Source: an uncultured Archangium sp. (GTDB lineage: Bacteria; Myxococcota; Myxococcia; Myxococcales; Myxococcaceae). From it: a stretch of 64,000 nucleotides of DNA. Below the pieces are notes generated by a model, which saw only the letters and a list, made by a program, of their open reading frames with translations, did not search any database and was not told the origin of the DNA. The stretch lies in NCBI GenBank assembly GCA_903905455.1, contig CAIVGN010000133.1:62001-126000 (forward strand). The letters run 5' to 3'. A program made the position numbers and the translations under genes. Below, piece after piece: positions 23,537-31,507 of the stretch (the stretch's first letter is position 1; every line of letters starts with the position of its first letter).

Positions 23537-23667
23537 CGGCCCTCCCTCGCAGAGGTGTCGAGAGGGTGTCAATTCGTGTCGGCCCGATTGGGGTGTTTTG
23601 CGTCTTGCGTCCAAGGGGCCGGTTGAGGTCTGAGGCGCCGCTCAAAGGGTTGCTTCGGAGTCTCGGC

Positions 23668-25317
23668 ATGCGTCGGATCAGTACCGTTGGCGGTCTCACG
23701 CTGGGCGTGGCGGTGGCGTTTACCCTCGTGGGCTGCGGTCAGGCGGTAGGCAAGAAGGCCTCCGATGCCGGGACCCTGCCGGGCGTGGTCGATGGGGGCG
23801 CCGTGGCGCTGACGCCCCGCGCCCCCGAAGTCATCGTCGGTGAGGCCCTCGCCCAGGCGCGCGGGTGCGTGGGGTGCCACAGCTCCACGGCCGGGCTCCT
23901 CGCGGGATCGAATGCGGGCGTCGGCGGTCAGCCGGTCTACGCCCCCAACCTCACCCCCGACCCGGCCACCGGCGTGGGCGAGTGGACCGACGAGGCGCTG
24001 ATCACCGCCATCCGCTACGGCATCGACGACGAGGGCGCGACGCTGTGCTCCGAGATGCCGCGCGAGCCCGACCTGAGCGACGCCGACGCGGCGAAGCTCG
24101 TGGCCTGGCTGCGCAGCGTGCCGGCCATCGTCAACACCACCAACGCGAGCAGCTGCACCCCGCGGCTGAGCGACATCGTGCTGCATGGCCAGCTGGTGGC
24201 CCGCGAAAACGGCTGCGGCGAGTGCCATGGCCCCGCCCTCAGCGGCATCGACACCGCGCTGCCGCGCACCAGCTCGTACGCGCCCAACCTCACGCCTGAC
24301 CTCGACACGGGCCTGGGGAGCTGGACCACGCAGCAGATCGCCGACGCGGTGAAGCTCGGCGTCGACGACGAGGGCGCGCAGTTGTGCGGCACCATGCCTC
24401 GCTTCGACGCGCTGACCGACGAAGAGGCCACCGCGATCGCCACCTACCTGCAGTCGCTCACGCCCTCGGCGCACCAGGTGCCGACGACGATCTGTGAGCC
24501 CAACACCTTCGCTCCTGATGCGGGGATTGAACCGATCGATGCCGGGACGCTGCCGTACGACGCGGGGACCCCGACGTATGACGCGGGCACCTCGACGCAC
24601 GACGCAGGCACCTCGAGCCCCGACGCGGGTAGCTCGGCGCACGACGCGGGCACCTCGAGTCCCGACGCGGGCACCTCGACGCCCGACGCCGGCACCTCGA
24701 CCCCTGACGCCGGCACCTCGACGCCTGACGCGGGCCCGGCGACGTGCACCAGCGCCGCGGTGGTCATCTCGCAGGTCTACGGTGGCGGCGGCAACGCGGG
24801 CGCCCTGTACAAGGCCGACTTCATCGAGCTCCACAACCGCACCGGGCAGCCGGTCTCGCTGACGGGTTGGGCGCTGCAGTACGCGTCGTCCGCCGGCACG
24901 AGCTGGACGAGCTCACCGCTGCCCGCCGGCGCGACGCTGGCCCCCGGCGCCTTTGCCCTCTTCGCCGTGGGCACCGTGGGGACGACCGGCGCCGCGCTCC
25001 CCGGCACCGCGACGACGCTGGCGACCGCGCTCAACCTCTCGGCCACCACCGGCAAGGTCGCCCTCACGCAGACCGTGACCGCGCTCACCGGCTCGTGCCC
25101 CAACAGCAGCGCGCTGGTCGACTTCTTCGGCTACGGCGGCACCAACTGCTCCGAGGGCTCGATGCCCGCCGCGGCGCTCACCAGCAGCACTGCCGGCTTC
25201 CGCAAGGAGCTCACCGGGGCCTCGGTCGCGTGCACCGACACCGACGTGAACGCCGACGACTTCAGCAACGGCGCGCCGGCCCCGCACCAGGGCACGGCGA
25301 TCTGCAGCTGCCCGTGA
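23668..25317 (+). CDS. Diheme cytochrome c lipoprotein fused to a lamin-tail domain
   Basis: A 549-residue protein. ATG 23668 gives a lipoprotein signal ending FTLVGC (Cys23); the longer frame from 23566 overlaps rlmN's leader. Two cytochrome c domains follow, with heme sites CVGCH (67-71) and CGECH (183-187). Each is followed by a matching APNLTPD(P/L)(A/D)TG(V/L)G segment and a conserved MP(R) that could supply the axial Met, so the halves are an internal duplication. Residues 284-358 are a DAG-rich linker, and about 358-549 form a lamin-tail domain (VVISQVYGGGG, DFIELHNRTGQPVSLTGWAL, VDFFGYGG). A surface electron-transfer role is likely; the partner is unknown. The fusion is unusual. Confidence 0.85.
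   Translation: MRRISTVGGLTLGVAVAFTLVGCGQAVGKKASDAGTLPGVVDGGAVALTPRAPEVIVGEALAQARGCVGCHSSTAGLLAGSNAGVGGQPVYAPNLTPDPATGVGEWTDEALITAIRYGIDDEGATLCSEMPREPDLSDADAAKLVAWLRSVPAIVNTTNASSCTPRLSDIVLHGQLVARENGCGECHGPALSGIDTALPRTSSYAPNLTPDLDTGLGSWTTQQIADAVKLGVDDEGAQLCGTMPRFDALTDEEATAIATYLQSLTPSAHQVPTTICEPNTFAPDAGIEPIDAGTLPYDAGTPTYDAGTSTHDAGTSSPDAGSSAHDAGTSSPDAGTSTPDAGTSTPDAGTSTPDAGPATCTSAAVVISQVYGGGGNAGALYKADFIELHNRTGQPVSLTGWALQYASSAGTSWTSSPLPAGATLAPGAFALFAVGTVGTTGAALPGTATTLATALNLSATTGKVALTQTVTALTGSCPNSSALVDFFGYGGTNCSEGSMPAAALTSSTAGFRKELTGASVACTDTDVNADDFSNGAPAPHQGTAICSCP
24517..24744 (+). repeat. 21-base tandem repeat coding for the DAG linker
   Basis: Eleven units of seven codons begin with Asp-Ala-Gly (GAC/GAT-GC-GGx), for example DAGTSTP, DAGTSSP and DAGTPTY. 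Three DAGTSTP units near the 3' end are almost identical, indicating recent slippage or recombination. It links the heme domains to the lamin-tail domain and probably acts as a flexible spacer. Length variation between strains is expected. Confidence 0.85.
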
Positions 25318-26003: not shown

Positions 26004-29000
26004 ATGCACTCCTCACCCCGCGGCGCCGTGAGCCGTCGTCTGCTCATCGGCCTCGGCCTCGCCGCCCTCGCCATTCTCGGCATCGCCAGCACCCGCACCT
26101 GCCTGCGCGTCGGCTTCAGCACCGGGCTGTGGCTCGATGAGTGCCCCGATGGCGAGCTGCGCCAGACCATCAGCGTCTCGGCCCCCGAGCTCAAGCGCGG
26201 CGCCAAGGGGTGGGTGACGGTCACCGTCAACGCGACCTACCTCGTCGCGCCCAACGACTCGCGCAAGACCGAGCCCATCACCCGCTTCACGCCCATCGTC
26301 GCCCTCGTCGGCCCCAGCGGCGAGACGCTGCTGCAGCCGAAGAAAGCCTGGGCCTCGAACGGCAGCGCGATGCAGGGCGAGGTCGAGCTCCCCAAGGTGA
26401 ACGACGGCGACTACACGCTGCGCACCCGGGTCACCTCGCCCATCGGTGAACAGACCCTCGATCTCCCCTTGCCGCTCTACACGCCGGCGCGCGTGCACGT
26501 GCTGACCGACCGCCCGCTGTACGAGCCGGGCAACACCGTGAAGTTCCGCGCGCTGGCCCTGCGCGCCTCGGATCTCACGCCGCTCGAAGAACGCCCGGGT
26601 ACCTGGCGCGTCACCTCTCCCTCCGGGGACGTGCTGCTCGAAGAGCGCGCGCCCAGCGGATCGTGGGGCGTGGTGTCCGGCAGCTTCCCCCTCGATCACG
26701 CCGCCGAATCGGGTGAGTGGTCGGTGTCGTGGTCTTCCGGCAGCCAGAGCGAGTCGCGCTCCTTCACCGTCAAGCCCTTCACCCTGCCCCGCTTCCGCGT
26801 CGAGGCCGCCACGCTCAAGCCCTTCTACCGCCGCAACGAGCGCCCGGTGCTCAAGGGCTCGGTGACCTACAGCTCCGGCGCTCCGGTCGCGAACGCCAAG
26901 GTCGACCTCCAGTGGTCCGTGTCCGGCACCTGGCCGCCCCCCACCAGCTGGGTCGACGGCACCGGCCTGCCGAAGCTCGCGACCACCAACGCCAGCGGCG
27001 TGTTCACCCTCGAGCTGCCCATGGTGCCCGAAGACCTGCAGGACCAGGCCTCGCTCATCGCCGCCATCGGCGCGGTGGACCCCTCGGGGGATCGCGTCGA
27101 GGGCCGGGCCTCGGTGCTCCTCTCCCAAGACCTCGTCGCGGTGACCGGCGTGACTGAGCTCGCCGACGGGTTGGTCGAGGGCTTCAACAACCGCCTCTTC
27201 CTGCGCGCCACCACGGCCGACGGGCGCTTGCTCGAAGGCGTCACCCTCAACGTGAAGCGCCTGTGGGAGCCCACCGACAAGGGCACCGACGCGCTCGTCG
27301 ACGAAGACGGCGTGGCCAGCGTGCAGGTCGACCCGGGACCGCCGGTGAACATCATCGTGCCCGCGATGCCCTTCCGCGCGCCGCCGCCCACGCCGCTCGT
27401 CGCGCGAGGCAGCCTGAGCGAGCGCCTCGGGCTCAACGAAGACGACGGCGCGGTCTCGCTCGCCGACCGCATGGCCTTCGATCGCCTCGACGCGAAGCTC
27501 GTGCCCTGCGCGCGCTACGTGCTCGGCGGCTCGGCCACGGTGACCGTGGGACTGCTGGTGCGCGCCAGCGGCTCCATCGCGGCCACCGCCACCTCCCCCA
27601 GCTCGCGCCTGGGCCGCTGCGTCGAGGGCACCCTCAAGGGCCTCCAGCTCGGCGCCGGCAAGGAGCGCTTCTTCGACGTGGTGTGGGGTTTCAACGACGA
27701 GGAACTGCCGCACTTCGAGGTCTCGCTCGACGGCATGCCCTCGGTGCCCGGCGCCCTCGAGACGGCCTTCGACGACGCCATGCTCGAGGCCCGCGATTGC
27801 CTGAGCGCGACGGTCAAGTCCGGACAGCTCCCGCGGCTGGTGCAGTGGAAGCTCAAGGGTCGGAACGTGGAGCTCACCTGGGTGCCGGTGAAGGGCGACG
27901 CCTATGCCGAGAGCGCGCTGTCGTGCATCGCCTCGCGCGTGAAGTCGCTGACCCTGCCGAAGGTTGCTGCCGAAGGAGACGAATCGGAAGAGGCCGAAGG
28001 CACGAGCCCCATCGGCGTGGCGCACGTGTCGATCAACGCCCCTGAGAAGTACGAGAACGCCCGGCCTCAGGACACGGTGATGGTCGGCTACGAGTTCCTC
28101 GTCACCGCGAAGAAGGGCACCGAGAGCTTCGGCAGCACCCGGCTGCGCATGACGCCGGGCACCGTGCCTTCCATTCGCCTGCGCGCGTCGTCGCAGCTGG
28201 TCAAGCCGGGAGACGCGGTGAAGATCGAGGTGCTCCGCGGCCCCGAATTCACCGGAGAGCTGCCCGAGAAGCTCTTCCTGACCCACGCCTTCCAGAGCCT
28301 CGAGGCGAAGCTCGACGAGAAGACCCGCGCCGCGACCTTCACCATCCCCGCCGACTGGCAGGGCTGGGCCGGCGTGCAGTGGGGCGGCGGCCAGGTGTTC
28401 CTCTTCGTGCAGCCCACCGCGTCGCTCGCGGTGAAGGTGACGCCCGAGAAGGCCCGCTACGCCCCGGGCCAGGTCGCCCAACTGGGCATCGAGACCACCC
28501 TGGGCAACGTGGGGGGCGCGGCCGCCGTCGGGCTCTTCGGCGTCGATGACAGCCTCTCGCAGCTCGCCACCCTGCCCGGCGCCGACGAGCTCGCGCCGCT
28601 GCGGCCCCAGGCCACCGGCGTCGCCGCCTTCGGATCCATGGATGCGCAGGCGCTCTCGTTGGGTCGCGTGCGCGGGGCCAACGCCGCGGCGGCCACCCTG
28701 GTTCGCGTGTCGGCGATGCCGCCTCCGCCGCAAGTCGAAGCCGCGGTCTCGGTCATGGGCAACACCGTGTTCGACCCCAACGAGGCCCAGGTCGATCGCT
28801 TCTACGTGGTGCTCGGCGAGCTCTACGCGCAGGTGCGCACGTGGGAGACCTCGGCGCCCGCCGCCGAAAAGATGAGCCCGCCGGTGATGGCGCGGCTGTG
28901 GAACCAGTCGCTCGAGGCCGTCGAGGGTCGCAAGGACTCGGCCCGGGACGCGTGGGGCCGCAGGTTGAGGTTGCACCGCTTGCCGACCGACCTGCTCGCG

Positions 29001-29093
29001 CTCACCGAGCCGCGGGCGGTCGTGATCAACGGCACGCGCCTGCCGGAAGACACCCAGAACTGGTCGCAGTGGGTCGCCAAGGAGAAGCCGTGA
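26004..29093 (+). CDS. Alpha-2-macroglobulin family protein, N-terminal half
   Basis: A 1029-residue protein beginning at ATG 26004 after AAGGGGGAA. A membrane anchor (residues 12-29) places it in the periplasm, with no lipobox. The MG2 domain begins near residue 160 (ARVHVLTDRPLYEPGNTVKFRALAL, the family signature), followed by further beta-sandwich segments (FTVKPFTLPRFRV, GFNNRLFLRATT). A non-A2M insertion at about 490-670 has two Cys-containing repeats of a DUF-like fold (CVEGTLKGLQL and CLSATVKSGQL). MG-like strands return to the C-terminus. It lacks the A2M and thioester regions, which lie in the next gene; the GTGA overlap (29090-29093) couples them. A protease-trapping or structural periplasmic role is inferred. 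Confidence 0.85.
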   Translation: MHSSPRGAVSRRLLIGLGLAALAILGIASTRTCLRVGFSTGLWLDECPDGELRQTISVSAPELKRGAKGWVTVTVNATYLVAPNDSRKTEPITRFTPIVALVGPSGETLLQPKKAWASNGSAMQGEVELPKVNDGDYTLRTRVTSPIGEQTLDLPLPLYTPARVHVLTDRPLYEPGNTVKFRALALRASDLTPLEERPGTWRVTSPSGDVLLEERAPSGSWGVVSGSFPLDHAAESGEWSVSWSSGSQSESRSFTVKPFTLPRFRVEAATLKPFYRRNERPVLKGSVTYSSGAPVANAKVDLQWSVSGTWPPPTSWVDGTGLPKLATTNASGVFTLELPMVPEDLQDQASLIAAIGAVDPSGDRVEGRASVLLSQDLVAVTGVTELADGLVEGFNNRLFLRATTADGRLLEGVTLNVKRLWEPTDKGTDALVDEDGVASVQVDPGPPVNIIVPAMPFRAPPPTPLVARGSLSERLGLNEDDGAVSLADRMAFDRLDAKLVPCARYVLGGSATVTVGLLVRASGSIAATATSPSSRLGRCVEGTLKGLQLGAGKERFFDVVWGFNDEELPHFEVSLDGMPSVPGALETAFDDAMLEARDCLSATVKSGQLPRLVQWKLKGRNVELTWVPVKGDAYAESALSCIASRVKSLTLPKVAAEGDESEEAEGTSPIGVAHVSINAPEKYENARPQDTVMVGYEFLVTAKKGTESFGSTRLRMTPGTVPSIRLRASSQLVKPGDAVKIEVLRGPEFTGELPEKLFLTHAFQSLEAKLDEKTRAATFTIPADWQGWAGVQWGGGQVFLFVQPTASLAVKVTPEKARYAPGQVAQLGIETTLGNVGGAAAVGLFGVDDSLSQLATLPGADELAPLRPQATGVAAFGSMDAQALSLGRVRGANAAAATLVRVSAMPPPPQVEAAVSVMGNTVFDPNEAQVDRFYVVLGELYAQVRTWETSAPAAEKMSPPVMARLWNQSLEAVEGRKDSARDAWGRRLRLHRLPTDLLALTEPRAVVINGTRLPEDTQNWSQWVAKEKP

Positions 29094-31507
29094 AGAAGGT
29101 CATCGTCTTCGGGCTCACCGCCCTCGCCATCGCCTTCGTCGCCCTCATCGGCATGGGCGACAACATCAAGGCCCTCTTCGGCATGAGCGCCGACGCCCTG
29201 TCGGGTGACACCAGCGTCTACCGCCGCGAGAAGAACATGGTCATGCCGTCGGCCGCGGCACCGCCGATGGAGGAAGCCATGGCCGCCGAGCCCATGGACA
29301 AGGCGAGGCCCAAGCGGAGCAACCTGCTCAAGTCCCTCGGCTCCGGCGAAGGCGGCGGGGGCCTCGCTGATTCCATCGGCATCGGCGGCATCGGCACCAA
29401 GGGCCGCGGCGGTGGCCTCGGCGACTCCAACTCGTTCGGCGGACTCCTCGACGGCAAGGCCTCGAAAGAAGAGGCCAGCCCTGAGGCCCCCGGAGGGCTC
29501 GAGCCGGCCCCCACCCGCGCGTGGTTCCCCGAGACCTTCCTCTTCGAGCCGCTCATCGTCACCGACGCGCAGGGTCGCGCGAACGTGCCGGTGAAGGTGC
29601 CGGATCGCCTCACCACCTGGCGCGTGCTCGCGCTCGCCCATTCCCGCCAGGGTAGCCAGGCCGGCGCCGTGGCCAGCTTCCTGGGCACGCTGCCCACCTA
29701 CGTCGACCCCGTCACCCCGCCCTTCCTCTACGCGGGCGACACGCTGCGGGTGCCGGTGCAGGTGGTGAACACCACCGAAGAAGACGTCACCAGCGCGCTC
29801 ACGTACCGGGCCAGCGGAGGCACGCTGTCCGCCACCGGCGCCACGGTGAAGGTGCCCGCCTTCGGCAACGCGCTGCAGTACGTGACGCTCTCCACCACCC
29901 GGCCGGGCACCGCGGTCTTCAAGACCACCCTGGGCACGACCGACGCAGTGGAGAAGACCATCGAGCTCAAGCCCGCCGGTCGCCGCGAGACGCAGAGCAA
30001 GGCGGGCACCCTCGCCGCGCCGCGCACCTTCACCCTCACCGGGCCGAGCAACCCGCTGCCCGGCACCGAGACCGTCCGCGTGCAGGTGTACCCGGGCGCC
30101 CTGGGCCTCGTGCGCAACGAGCTTTCGGCAGCGCCGGGCCGCGGGGGCGTGGCCGAAGACGCCTACCTGCTCCAGCTGCTGGGCCAGGCGCCCGCGCTGC
30201 TGCGCTCGCTGGGCGCGACGCCCGACGAGCCGGTGATCCGCGACCTGTCGATCCTCGCGACGCAGCGGGTGATGCAGTACGCGCGCTCGCCGTCGGTGGA
30301 CGCCGCGACGCTGCTGACCGAGGCGGCGCTGGCGCACCCGCAGAACCCGGTGCTCGCGCGGCTGGGCGAGCGCCTCGCGTTGCAGGTCGCCCAGTCCCAG
30401 CGCGCCGACGGCACTTGCCAGGGCGCGACAGGGTGGACGCTCCAGCGCCTGCTCGTCACCACCGCCGAGTGCGTGCGCGCCTCCCGGGCCTCGATGGACG
30501 CGCCCGCCGCCCGCCAACGCGCGACGGCGGTGACCCTCAAGGCCTCGGGCGCCTTCGAGCGCAACGCCGCGCGCGTCAACGACGGGTACACCGCCGCGGC
30601 CATCCTCGCCTCGGGCGCCCTGACCGGCGGCGCGGGCGACACGTACCGCAAGCTCATCCTCGAGAAGCTCACCGACTCGGGCGACGGCGGGAAGTACCTC
30701 GCGGTGGACCCCGGCGTGGTGCGCGCCGACGGCCGGGCGCCTTCGACGTACGAGGCGACGGCCATGGCCATCCTCGCGCTCGACGGCGTGAAGGACGCCC
30801 CGCTCGCCGATCTCGGCACCTACCTGCTCTCGGGCTACACGACGTACGCGGGGTGGGGTGACGGCCGCGCGAACCTCGTGGCGCTGAGGGCCGCGGTGCA
30901 GCTCTTCAAGGACCCCGTGCCTCCGGGCGTGAAGATCACCGTGCTGCGCGACGGCCAGGCGCTGACCTCCGGGGCCTTCGACGCCAGCACCCTCAAGGAG
31001 GTGCTCTCGCTGGGCGCCGACGCCAGCGGCAGCGGTGGCGTGCACGAGTGGACCATCAGGGCCGAGCCCGCGGTGCCCGGCCTGGGCTACGCGCTGCAGC
31101 TCATCTCGTACGCCCCCTGGAAGGACGAAGCGGGCGGCGGCCTCGAGCTACGGACCACGCTGCCCACGAGCCTCAAGGTGGGCCTGCCCGGCGACGTGAA
31201 GCTCACCGCCTCGGTCCCCGGGGGCACGCCGATGAAGCTCGAGCTCTCGCTGCCGGCCGGCGTGCAGGCCGACTCGACCTCCCTGGGCAAGCTGGTCTCG
31301 AGCAACGCCATCCTCCGCTACGAGAGCGAAGACGGGCTCCTCACCCTGCACCTGCCCGCGCTGCCCAACGGCGCCACCTGGGAGCACGAGCTGCAGGTCA
31401 TCGCCACGCTGGGCGGCACCCTGCACTCGGGGGCCTCGTCGCTGTCGCCCGAGGACACCCCTTCGAAGCAGAAGGACTTCGCGCCGGTCACCTGGCGCAT
31501 CGACTGA
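29090..31507 (+). CDS. Alpha-2-macroglobulin family protein, C-terminal half, thioester lost
   Basis: An 805-residue protein starting at GTG 29090, which overlaps the previous stop and is preceded by AAGGAGAAG. Residues 1-20 form a membrane anchor, then a Gly-rich linker. The A2M signature TRAWFPETFLFEPLIVTD at about residue 141 and the VPDRLTTWRVLAL segment after it are classical. Where thioester macroglobulins carry GCGEQ, near residue 350, the sequence reads GRGGVAEDAYLLQ, so the covalent trap chemistry is absent. A helical alpha/alpha-toroid region (about 350-600) and a C-terminal receptor-like beta domain follow. With the upstream gene it would rebuild a full macroglobulin from two anchored chains. 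The convergent AAA gene begins one base after its stop. Confidence 0.87.
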   Translation: MKKVIVFGLTALAIAFVALIGMGDNIKALFGMSADALSGDTSVYRREKNMVMPSAAAPPMEEAMAAEPMDKARPKRSNLLKSLGSGEGGGGLADSIGIGGIGTKGRGGGLGDSNSFGGLLDGKASKEEASPEAPGGLEPAPTRAWFPETFLFEPLIVTDAQGRANVPVKVPDRLTTWRVLALAHSRQGSQAGAVASFLGTLPTYVDPVTPPFLYAGDTLRVPVQVVNTTEEDVTSALTYRASGGTLSATGATVKVPAFGNALQYVTLSTTRPGTAVFKTTLGTTDAVEKTIELKPAGRRETQSKAGTLAAPRTFTLTGPSNPLPGTETVRVQVYPGALGLVRNELSAAPGRGGVAEDAYLLQLLGQAPALLRSLGATPDEPVIRDLSILATQRVMQYARSPSVDAATLLTEAALAHPQNPVLARLGERLALQVAQSQRADGTCQGATGWTLQRLLVTTAECVRASRASMDAPAARQRATAVTLKASGAFERNAARVNDGYTAAAILASGALTGGAGDTYRKLILEKLTDSGDGGKYLAVDPGVVRADGRAPSTYEATAMAILALDGVKDAPLADLGTYLLSGYTTYAGWGDGRANLVALRAAVQLFKDPVPPGVKITVLRDGQALTSGAFDASTLKEVLSLGADASGSGGVHEWTIRAEPAVPGLGYALQLISYAPWKDEAGGGLELRTTLPTSLKVGLPGDVKLTASVPGGTPMKLELSLPAGVQADSTSLGKLVSSNAILRYESEDGLLTLHLPALPNGATWEHELQVIATLGGTLHSGASSLSPEDTPSKQKDFAPVTWRID

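Follow-up and report, generated by a model that had tools for sequence, protein, structure and literature searches.

Two overlapping genes of an uncultured Archangium sp. encode the N-terminal and the C-terminal chain of a protein that belongs to the alpha-2-macroglobulin (A2M) superfamily by its MG2 domain, its A2M domain and its thioester-domain (TED) fold. We lean towards reading this pair as an ancient two-subunit A2M, clamped at the inner membrane and non-covalent, that would act as a scaffold or sensor of the cell envelope. Bacterial A2Ms are usually viewed as single-chain protease traps, covalent or non-covalent. The clade described here is widespread and has dropped both the thioester and the continuous bait, yet the complete fold survives, spread over two conserved genes. 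Its hosts include genetically tractable predators such as Myxococcus xanthus, and the role of an A2M scaffold that has neither bait nor thioester becomes directly testable.

Two coupled genes and their anchors

We analysed a stretch of 64,000 nucleotides (the window), in which the gene pair is laid out as follows.

26004..29093, + strand: gene A, the N-terminal A2M chain (1029 aa), with the domain order transmembrane helix, MG1-MG4, two TonB-C-like domains, MG5, MG6alpha and a helical C-terminal tail
26037..26093, + strand: membrane anchor of chain A (residues 12-30), from hydropathy; the hydrophobic segment is kept in all chain A sequences
26490..26771, + strand: MG2 domain of chain A (residues 163-256)
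29079..29084, + strand: Shine-Dalgarno sequence AAGGAG of gene B, a 6-base match lying within gene A
29090..29093, + strand: GTGA, in which gene A stops and gene B starts; the exact 4-base overlap is also found in relatives
29090..31507, + strand: gene B, the C-terminal A2M chain (805 aa, GTG start), with the domain order anchor, linker, MG6beta, MG7, CUB, TED without thioester and MG8
29099..29155, + strand: membrane anchor of chain B (residues 4-22), transmembrane here and a lipobox in other lineages

The first-pass annotation had described an A2M divided between two genes that share GTGA, with MG2 in the first and the A2M domain in the second, and this arrangement was borne out. PF01835 (MG2) matched chain A at 66.9 bits (cut-off 32.8), and PF00207 (A2M) matched chain B at 52.2 bits (cut-off 21). 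The bait-region profile PF07703 scored 20.1 bits on chain A, under its cut-off of 22.7 bits, and only its last third was matched (residues 806-854); it was nevertheless matched at E<=1 in 31 of 31 chain A sequences. At the junction the two frames differ by one base. A Shine-Dalgarno sequence of at least 4 bases preceded gene B at all 48 distinct junctions, compared with about 36% of the other RTGA sites in gene A. Judged from these sequences, the arrangement is one of translational coupling of two proteins.

Each chain also has an N-terminal anchor of its own, as had been proposed, in the form of one hydrophobic helix with predicted N-in topology. The anchor of chain A is followed by Cys33 and Cys47, which were invariant in 46 sequences. 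In several lineages outside family f1, chain B begins with a lipobox in place of the helix, so that its anchor is kept although the kind of anchor changes.

Chain boundary, thioester site and inserted domains

The following features define the boundary between the chains and the thioester site.

28419..28601, + strand: MG6alpha half-domain of chain A (residues 806-866), matched by the end of the A2M_BRD profile (806-854) and lying within the structural match to the C3/C4/C5 beta chains
28602..29090, + strand: C-terminal tail of chain A (residues 867-1029), conserved, occupying the place where the bait region begins
29180..29509, + strand: Gly-rich linker of chain B (residues 31-140), disordered, occupying the place where the bait region ends
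29510..29686, + strand: MG6beta half-domain of chain B (residues 141-199)
30095..30907, + strand: thioester-domain fold of chain B (12 helices, residues 336-606), matching the C5 TE domain
30137..30160, + strand: GRGGVAED at the GCxEQ position (chain B residues 350-357), thioester loop absent

AlphaFold models of chain A (pLDDT 86.9) and chain B (pLDDT 82.2) were compared with PDB structures. Residues 161-905 of chain A aligned to the C3, C4 and C5 beta chains with Z of about 16, and residues 145-804 of chain B aligned to the alpha chains of C3 and C5, from about residue 745-767 to the C-terminus, with Z of about 27. In these models chain A corresponds to the complement/A2M beta chain (MG1-MG6alpha) and chain B to the alpha-prime chain (MG6beta-MG8). 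Because of these matches, we place the gene boundary between MG6alpha and MG6beta. This point falls within the bait region and near the junction of the beta and alpha chains in complement. In the numbering used for bacterial A2Ms, the bait region lies within MG8 (PMC4498604).

Conservation differed sharply along the two chains: MG6beta was the most conserved block of either (0.77), and the chain B linker, with pLDDT <50 over residues 31-136, was the least conserved (0.17). Both MG6 halves had lowered confidence in the single-chain models, and this one MG domain, divided between the chains, would be completed across both. Since MG6 is split and no other block of the two chains is as well conserved as its beta half, an obligate A/B heterodimer is likely. 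The C-terminal tail of chain A had a column conservation of 0.57-0.58 and predicted helices. We considered the tail, with its DAWGRRL sequence, as a homologue of a DPWG...GPDE module in the bait of fused relatives and rejected the match: the tail lies in the right place, but the similarity was insignificant (hhalign probability <=7%). The module itself, DPFG/DPWG...SAGPDE..GTxDD, was observed in the fused Myxococcota A2Ms at loci L204, L205, L206, L213, L214 and L215, and it is reminiscent of the C-terminus of type II pseudopilins.

The proposed loss of the thioester was likewise upheld. Chain B gave a full-length match to the profile of myxobacterial fused proteins (693 columns, probability 100%), and the GC[FM]EQ loop of these relatives fell in a 5-residue gap of the chain B alignment. 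CxEQ was absent from the thioester site in 32 of 32 chain B sequences. The fold of the domain is retained: the best single-domain match of its model was the C5 TE domain, with Z 23.5 and 3.3 A over 266 residues. The same genome encodes three further A2Ms, all of them single-chain proteins that carry GCLEQ or GCVEQ.

At the same site, some fused myxobacterial A2Ms have TGA, in frame, precisely where the codon of the thioester cysteine should stand (LPGG[TGA]FEQ). These are L203/L221/L264/L277 (G004:C438, two tandem genes) and L202/L222/L265 (G005:C449). The frame is open for more than 475 codons on either side, the genomes carry tRNA-Sec and SelB, and a similar hairpin lies about 20-49 bases 3' of each TGA. 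This codon probably encodes selenocysteine, and the product of these genes may be a selenoester A2M. No Rfam match to a SECIS family was obtained in the TGA-containing genes. An Acido-Lenti-1 RNA (RF01687; 48.3 bits, gathering score 37) was detected near the TGA-containing A2M of G005 (L222:1257-1301, - strand).

Between MG4 and MG5, chain A carries an insertion of two units, and a related sequence motif lies in the linker of chain B.

27456..27713, + strand: TonB-C-like (AgmX/PglI) unit 1 (chain A residues 485-570, Cys502/Cys539; hhalign 93%)
27726..28043, + strand: TonB-C-like (AgmX/PglI) unit 2 (chain A residues 575-680, Cys599/Cys641; hhalign 66%)
29378..29404, + strand: GIGGIGTKG motif in the chain B linker, shared with linkers upstream of AgmX/PglI domains

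Two Cys-repeat units had been noted in this part of the first chain, and both cysteine pairs proved invariant in 46 chain A sequences. The hhalign values come from comparison with 19 AgmX/PglI (NF033768) domains of the same genome, in which the paired cysteines of each unit were aligned with those of the AgmX/PglI domains; other regions of chain A, used as controls, gave probabilities of at most about 3%. The units have a predicted alpha-beta-beta-alpha-beta order. Single members did not reach the NCBIfam NF033768 cut-off, and 1 of 31 matched, at E 0.046 only. The insert is a tandem of TonB-C-like AgmX/PglI domains, and among the folded parts of chain A it has the lowest conservation (0.30-0.36). 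In the gliding machinery of M. xanthus, PglI is GltG and AgmX is GltJ, and GltG has a TonB-type motif (PMC3169522).

The AgmX/PglI (GltJ/GltG) proteins defined by NF033768 resemble the pair in having a TonB-C-like domain with paired cysteines and a similar Gly-rich linker, whereas in the pair two such domains follow one another within an A2M chain and the linker belongs to the partner chain. The sequence GIGGIGTKGRGGG of the chain B linker recurs at another place in the same genome (L178), where it precedes an AgmX/PglI domain by about 35 residues. This genome (G000) encodes 26 AgmX/PglI C-terminal domains, 20 of them above the NF033768 cut-off. In another genome, a fused thioester A2M (L209, G102:C25) resembles the split chain B in that MG6beta is immediately preceded by a Gly-rich linker of AgmX type, GFGGLGSRGTGAGGGGAGYG.

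Possible roles of the pair

In classical A2Ms, a cut in the bait separates the two halves of MG6, and the thioester bonds to the protease. The pair has no continuous bait and no thioester and is therefore not a classical covalent, bait-triggered trap. It shares its domain order with Type I bacterial A2Ms (ECAM, SaA2M) and with the single-chain myxobacterial A2Ms, which differ in being one chain with a GC[FLVM]EQ thioester. As in our reading of the pair, the bait of Type I A2Ms is disordered, lies inside a split MG domain, and belongs to a protein anchored in the inner membrane (PMC4498604). Type II bacterial A2Ms (MagD of Pseudomonas aeruginosa, YfaS) are, like the pair, without the CxEQ thioester, and they are periplasmic, as the pair is predicted to be (PMC5764988). 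MagD, however, is a single chain whose bait region is intact and whose gene belongs to a six-gene mag operon, whereas the pair consists of two genes with an interrupted bait, a TonB-C-like insert and no phylum-wide conserved neighbours. The pair thus departs from Type I in having no thioester, and from both bacterial types in that its bait is not contained in one chain.

Complement C3 and C5 also have two chains, with the boundary at the same place, and C5 is likewise without a thioester. In these proteins a single precursor is cut by proteolytic processing and disulfide bonds join the two chains; in the pair, by contrast, the cut lies in the gene, and conservation of the chain B cysteines is incomplete. 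Because the MG6 halves lie in separate chains, the pair would behave like two-chain C3/C5 with the cut placed in the gene, and it offers a natural two-chain counterpart to these proteins. A search of mostly open-access literature returned no papers on split A2Ms, membrane-embedded baits or selenocysteine A2Ms.

In the model that we favour, one mRNA would yield chains A and B through stop/start coupling, and the N-terminus of each would clamp it to the inner membrane, leaving its body in the periplasm. The chains would assemble via MG6, each contributing half, and the pair would act non-covalently as a membrane-clamped scaffold or sensor of the envelope, holding a partner through the MG ring, the TED-like domain and the two TonB-C-like modules. 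We prefer this reading because the bait is permanently open, the chain B linker resembles structural linkers and the TonB-C-like modules are built in. The first-pass suggestion of a two-chain, non-covalent trap or a structural protein was a reasonable one.

Its first half, a non-covalent protease trap, appears rather unlikely, although several features fit it. The thioester-free MagD of Pseudomonas still traps protease (PMC5764988), so that loss of the thioester leaves such a trap possible, with the chain B linker as bait. This linker lies at the end of the bait position and is disordered and fast-varying, as a bait would be, and the TED fold and MG ring are kept. Cutting of the linker would free the MG6beta end from its anchor, the heterodimer would close, and the protease would be held non-covalently, as has been reported of MagD. 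However, the bait is already open on the chain A side, and a cut would leave the two MG6 halves unseparated, although their separation is the normal trigger; the linker is also rich in Gly, Pro and Ala, like the structural linkers of AgmX-type proteins.

A more speculative and less probable version of the pair is that of a genetically pre-cut macroglobulin, in which the bait would have become a gene boundary plus an anchor in Myxococcota, leaving a machine that is permanently in two chains and free of the thioester. The TonB-C-like modules of chain A would then grip the linker of chain B or an outer-membrane partner, coupling an A2M-type conformational change to the envelope.

Still more doubtful is an envelope-spanning adaptor, in which the TonB-C-like domains would have as their ligand either a protein of the outer membrane or the Gly-rich chain B linker, and the pair would pass force or signal between the inner and outer membranes, akin to GltG/GltJ of the gliding machinery. 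The AgmX/PglI-like insert and the linker motif that recurs upstream of an AgmX/PglI domain are consistent with such a role, as are ExbD-like, TonB-like and TonB-dependent-receptor-like genes found 5-10 kb downstream in Myxococcus and Citreicoccus (L143, L120). This downstream cluster, however, is limited to these two clades, and the low conservation of the insert within chain A also argues against the adaptor.

Distribution and origin

We searched 195 whole Myxococcota genomes with each chain and counted from the result tables. Chain B gave strong matches in 87 genomes, and chain A was found in 86 of the same genomes, plus one fragment at a contig end; on this count the two chains co-occur perfectly. 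In all 31 extracted loci, gene A ended in a TGA inside ATGA or GTGA, the first three bases of which started gene B. A scan of named GTDB contigs yielded 76 loci, from Archangium, Myxococcus, Corallococcus, Pyxidicoccus, Hyalangium, Citreicoccus, Kofleriaceae MAGs and others, with titles that were nearly all Myxococcota or legacy 'Deltaproteobacteria' names. The exact 4-base overlap was present in 60 of the 68 GTDB loci with both genes; in the other eight, the genes were 1 to a few bases apart, the frames were broken on MAG contigs, or the junction was unscored. The 31-locus and 68-locus sets overlap, with some genomes common to both. No fused version of the pair occurred among the 31 extracted and 68 two-gene loci, which answers the earlier question of whether relatives are fused or split: every relative with intact frames is split.

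That programmed frameshifting makes one polypeptide, or that a sequencing error broke one gene, has almost no chance of being correct: junction frames one base apart would suit either, but in relatives with intact frames chain A stops and chain B starts at ATG or GTG with its own Shine-Dalgarno sequence and anchor, no conserved slippery sequence was found at the junctions, no fused relative of the split clade was found, and a sequencing error or pseudogene is ruled out because the exact ATGA/GTGA overlap recurs in so many genomes.

In a tree of the C-terminal halves, the split chain B sequences formed a single clade on a long branch (support 100/100), separate from every fused form, also from those whose bait is membrane-embedded. 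The split pair is, on this phylogeny, an ancient clade of Myxococcota with a single origin. The membrane-embedded baits occur in single-chain A2Ms (L202, L207, L208, L216, L217, L220, L226), whose bait region, between MG6alpha and MG6beta, contains 3-6 predicted transmembrane helices; most of these proteins have the thioester, and L202 has TGA there. In L217, a thioester A2M of the same phylum, the last bait helix together with the LFGDNIRRMFGASVDSIAG that comes after it is similar to the chain B N-terminus, e.g. LFGDNIRRLFGASAEALAG (profile E 3e-5; best decoy 1.5e-3), a likeness that may reflect either common descent or later exchange between paralogues. Together with the probable selenocysteine at the thioester site, the transmembrane baits of these single-chain relatives widen the chemistry and topology of A2Ms.

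No neighbouring gene was conserved across the phylum, neighbours being kept within clades only, and therefore no partner gene hints at the process in which the pair takes part. A search of a plasmid collection returned distant partial matches only. One record named Comamonas sp. KCTC 72670 (L137, BNCN01000015.1) carries a Myxococcus-like pair and neighbourhood and is probably misnamed. Elsewhere in the window, at 23566-25317, the translation reads as a predicted lipoprotein that combines two haem-type CxxCH motifs with a long linker of (T/S)(S/T)PDAG repeats and ends in a lamin-tail-like region.
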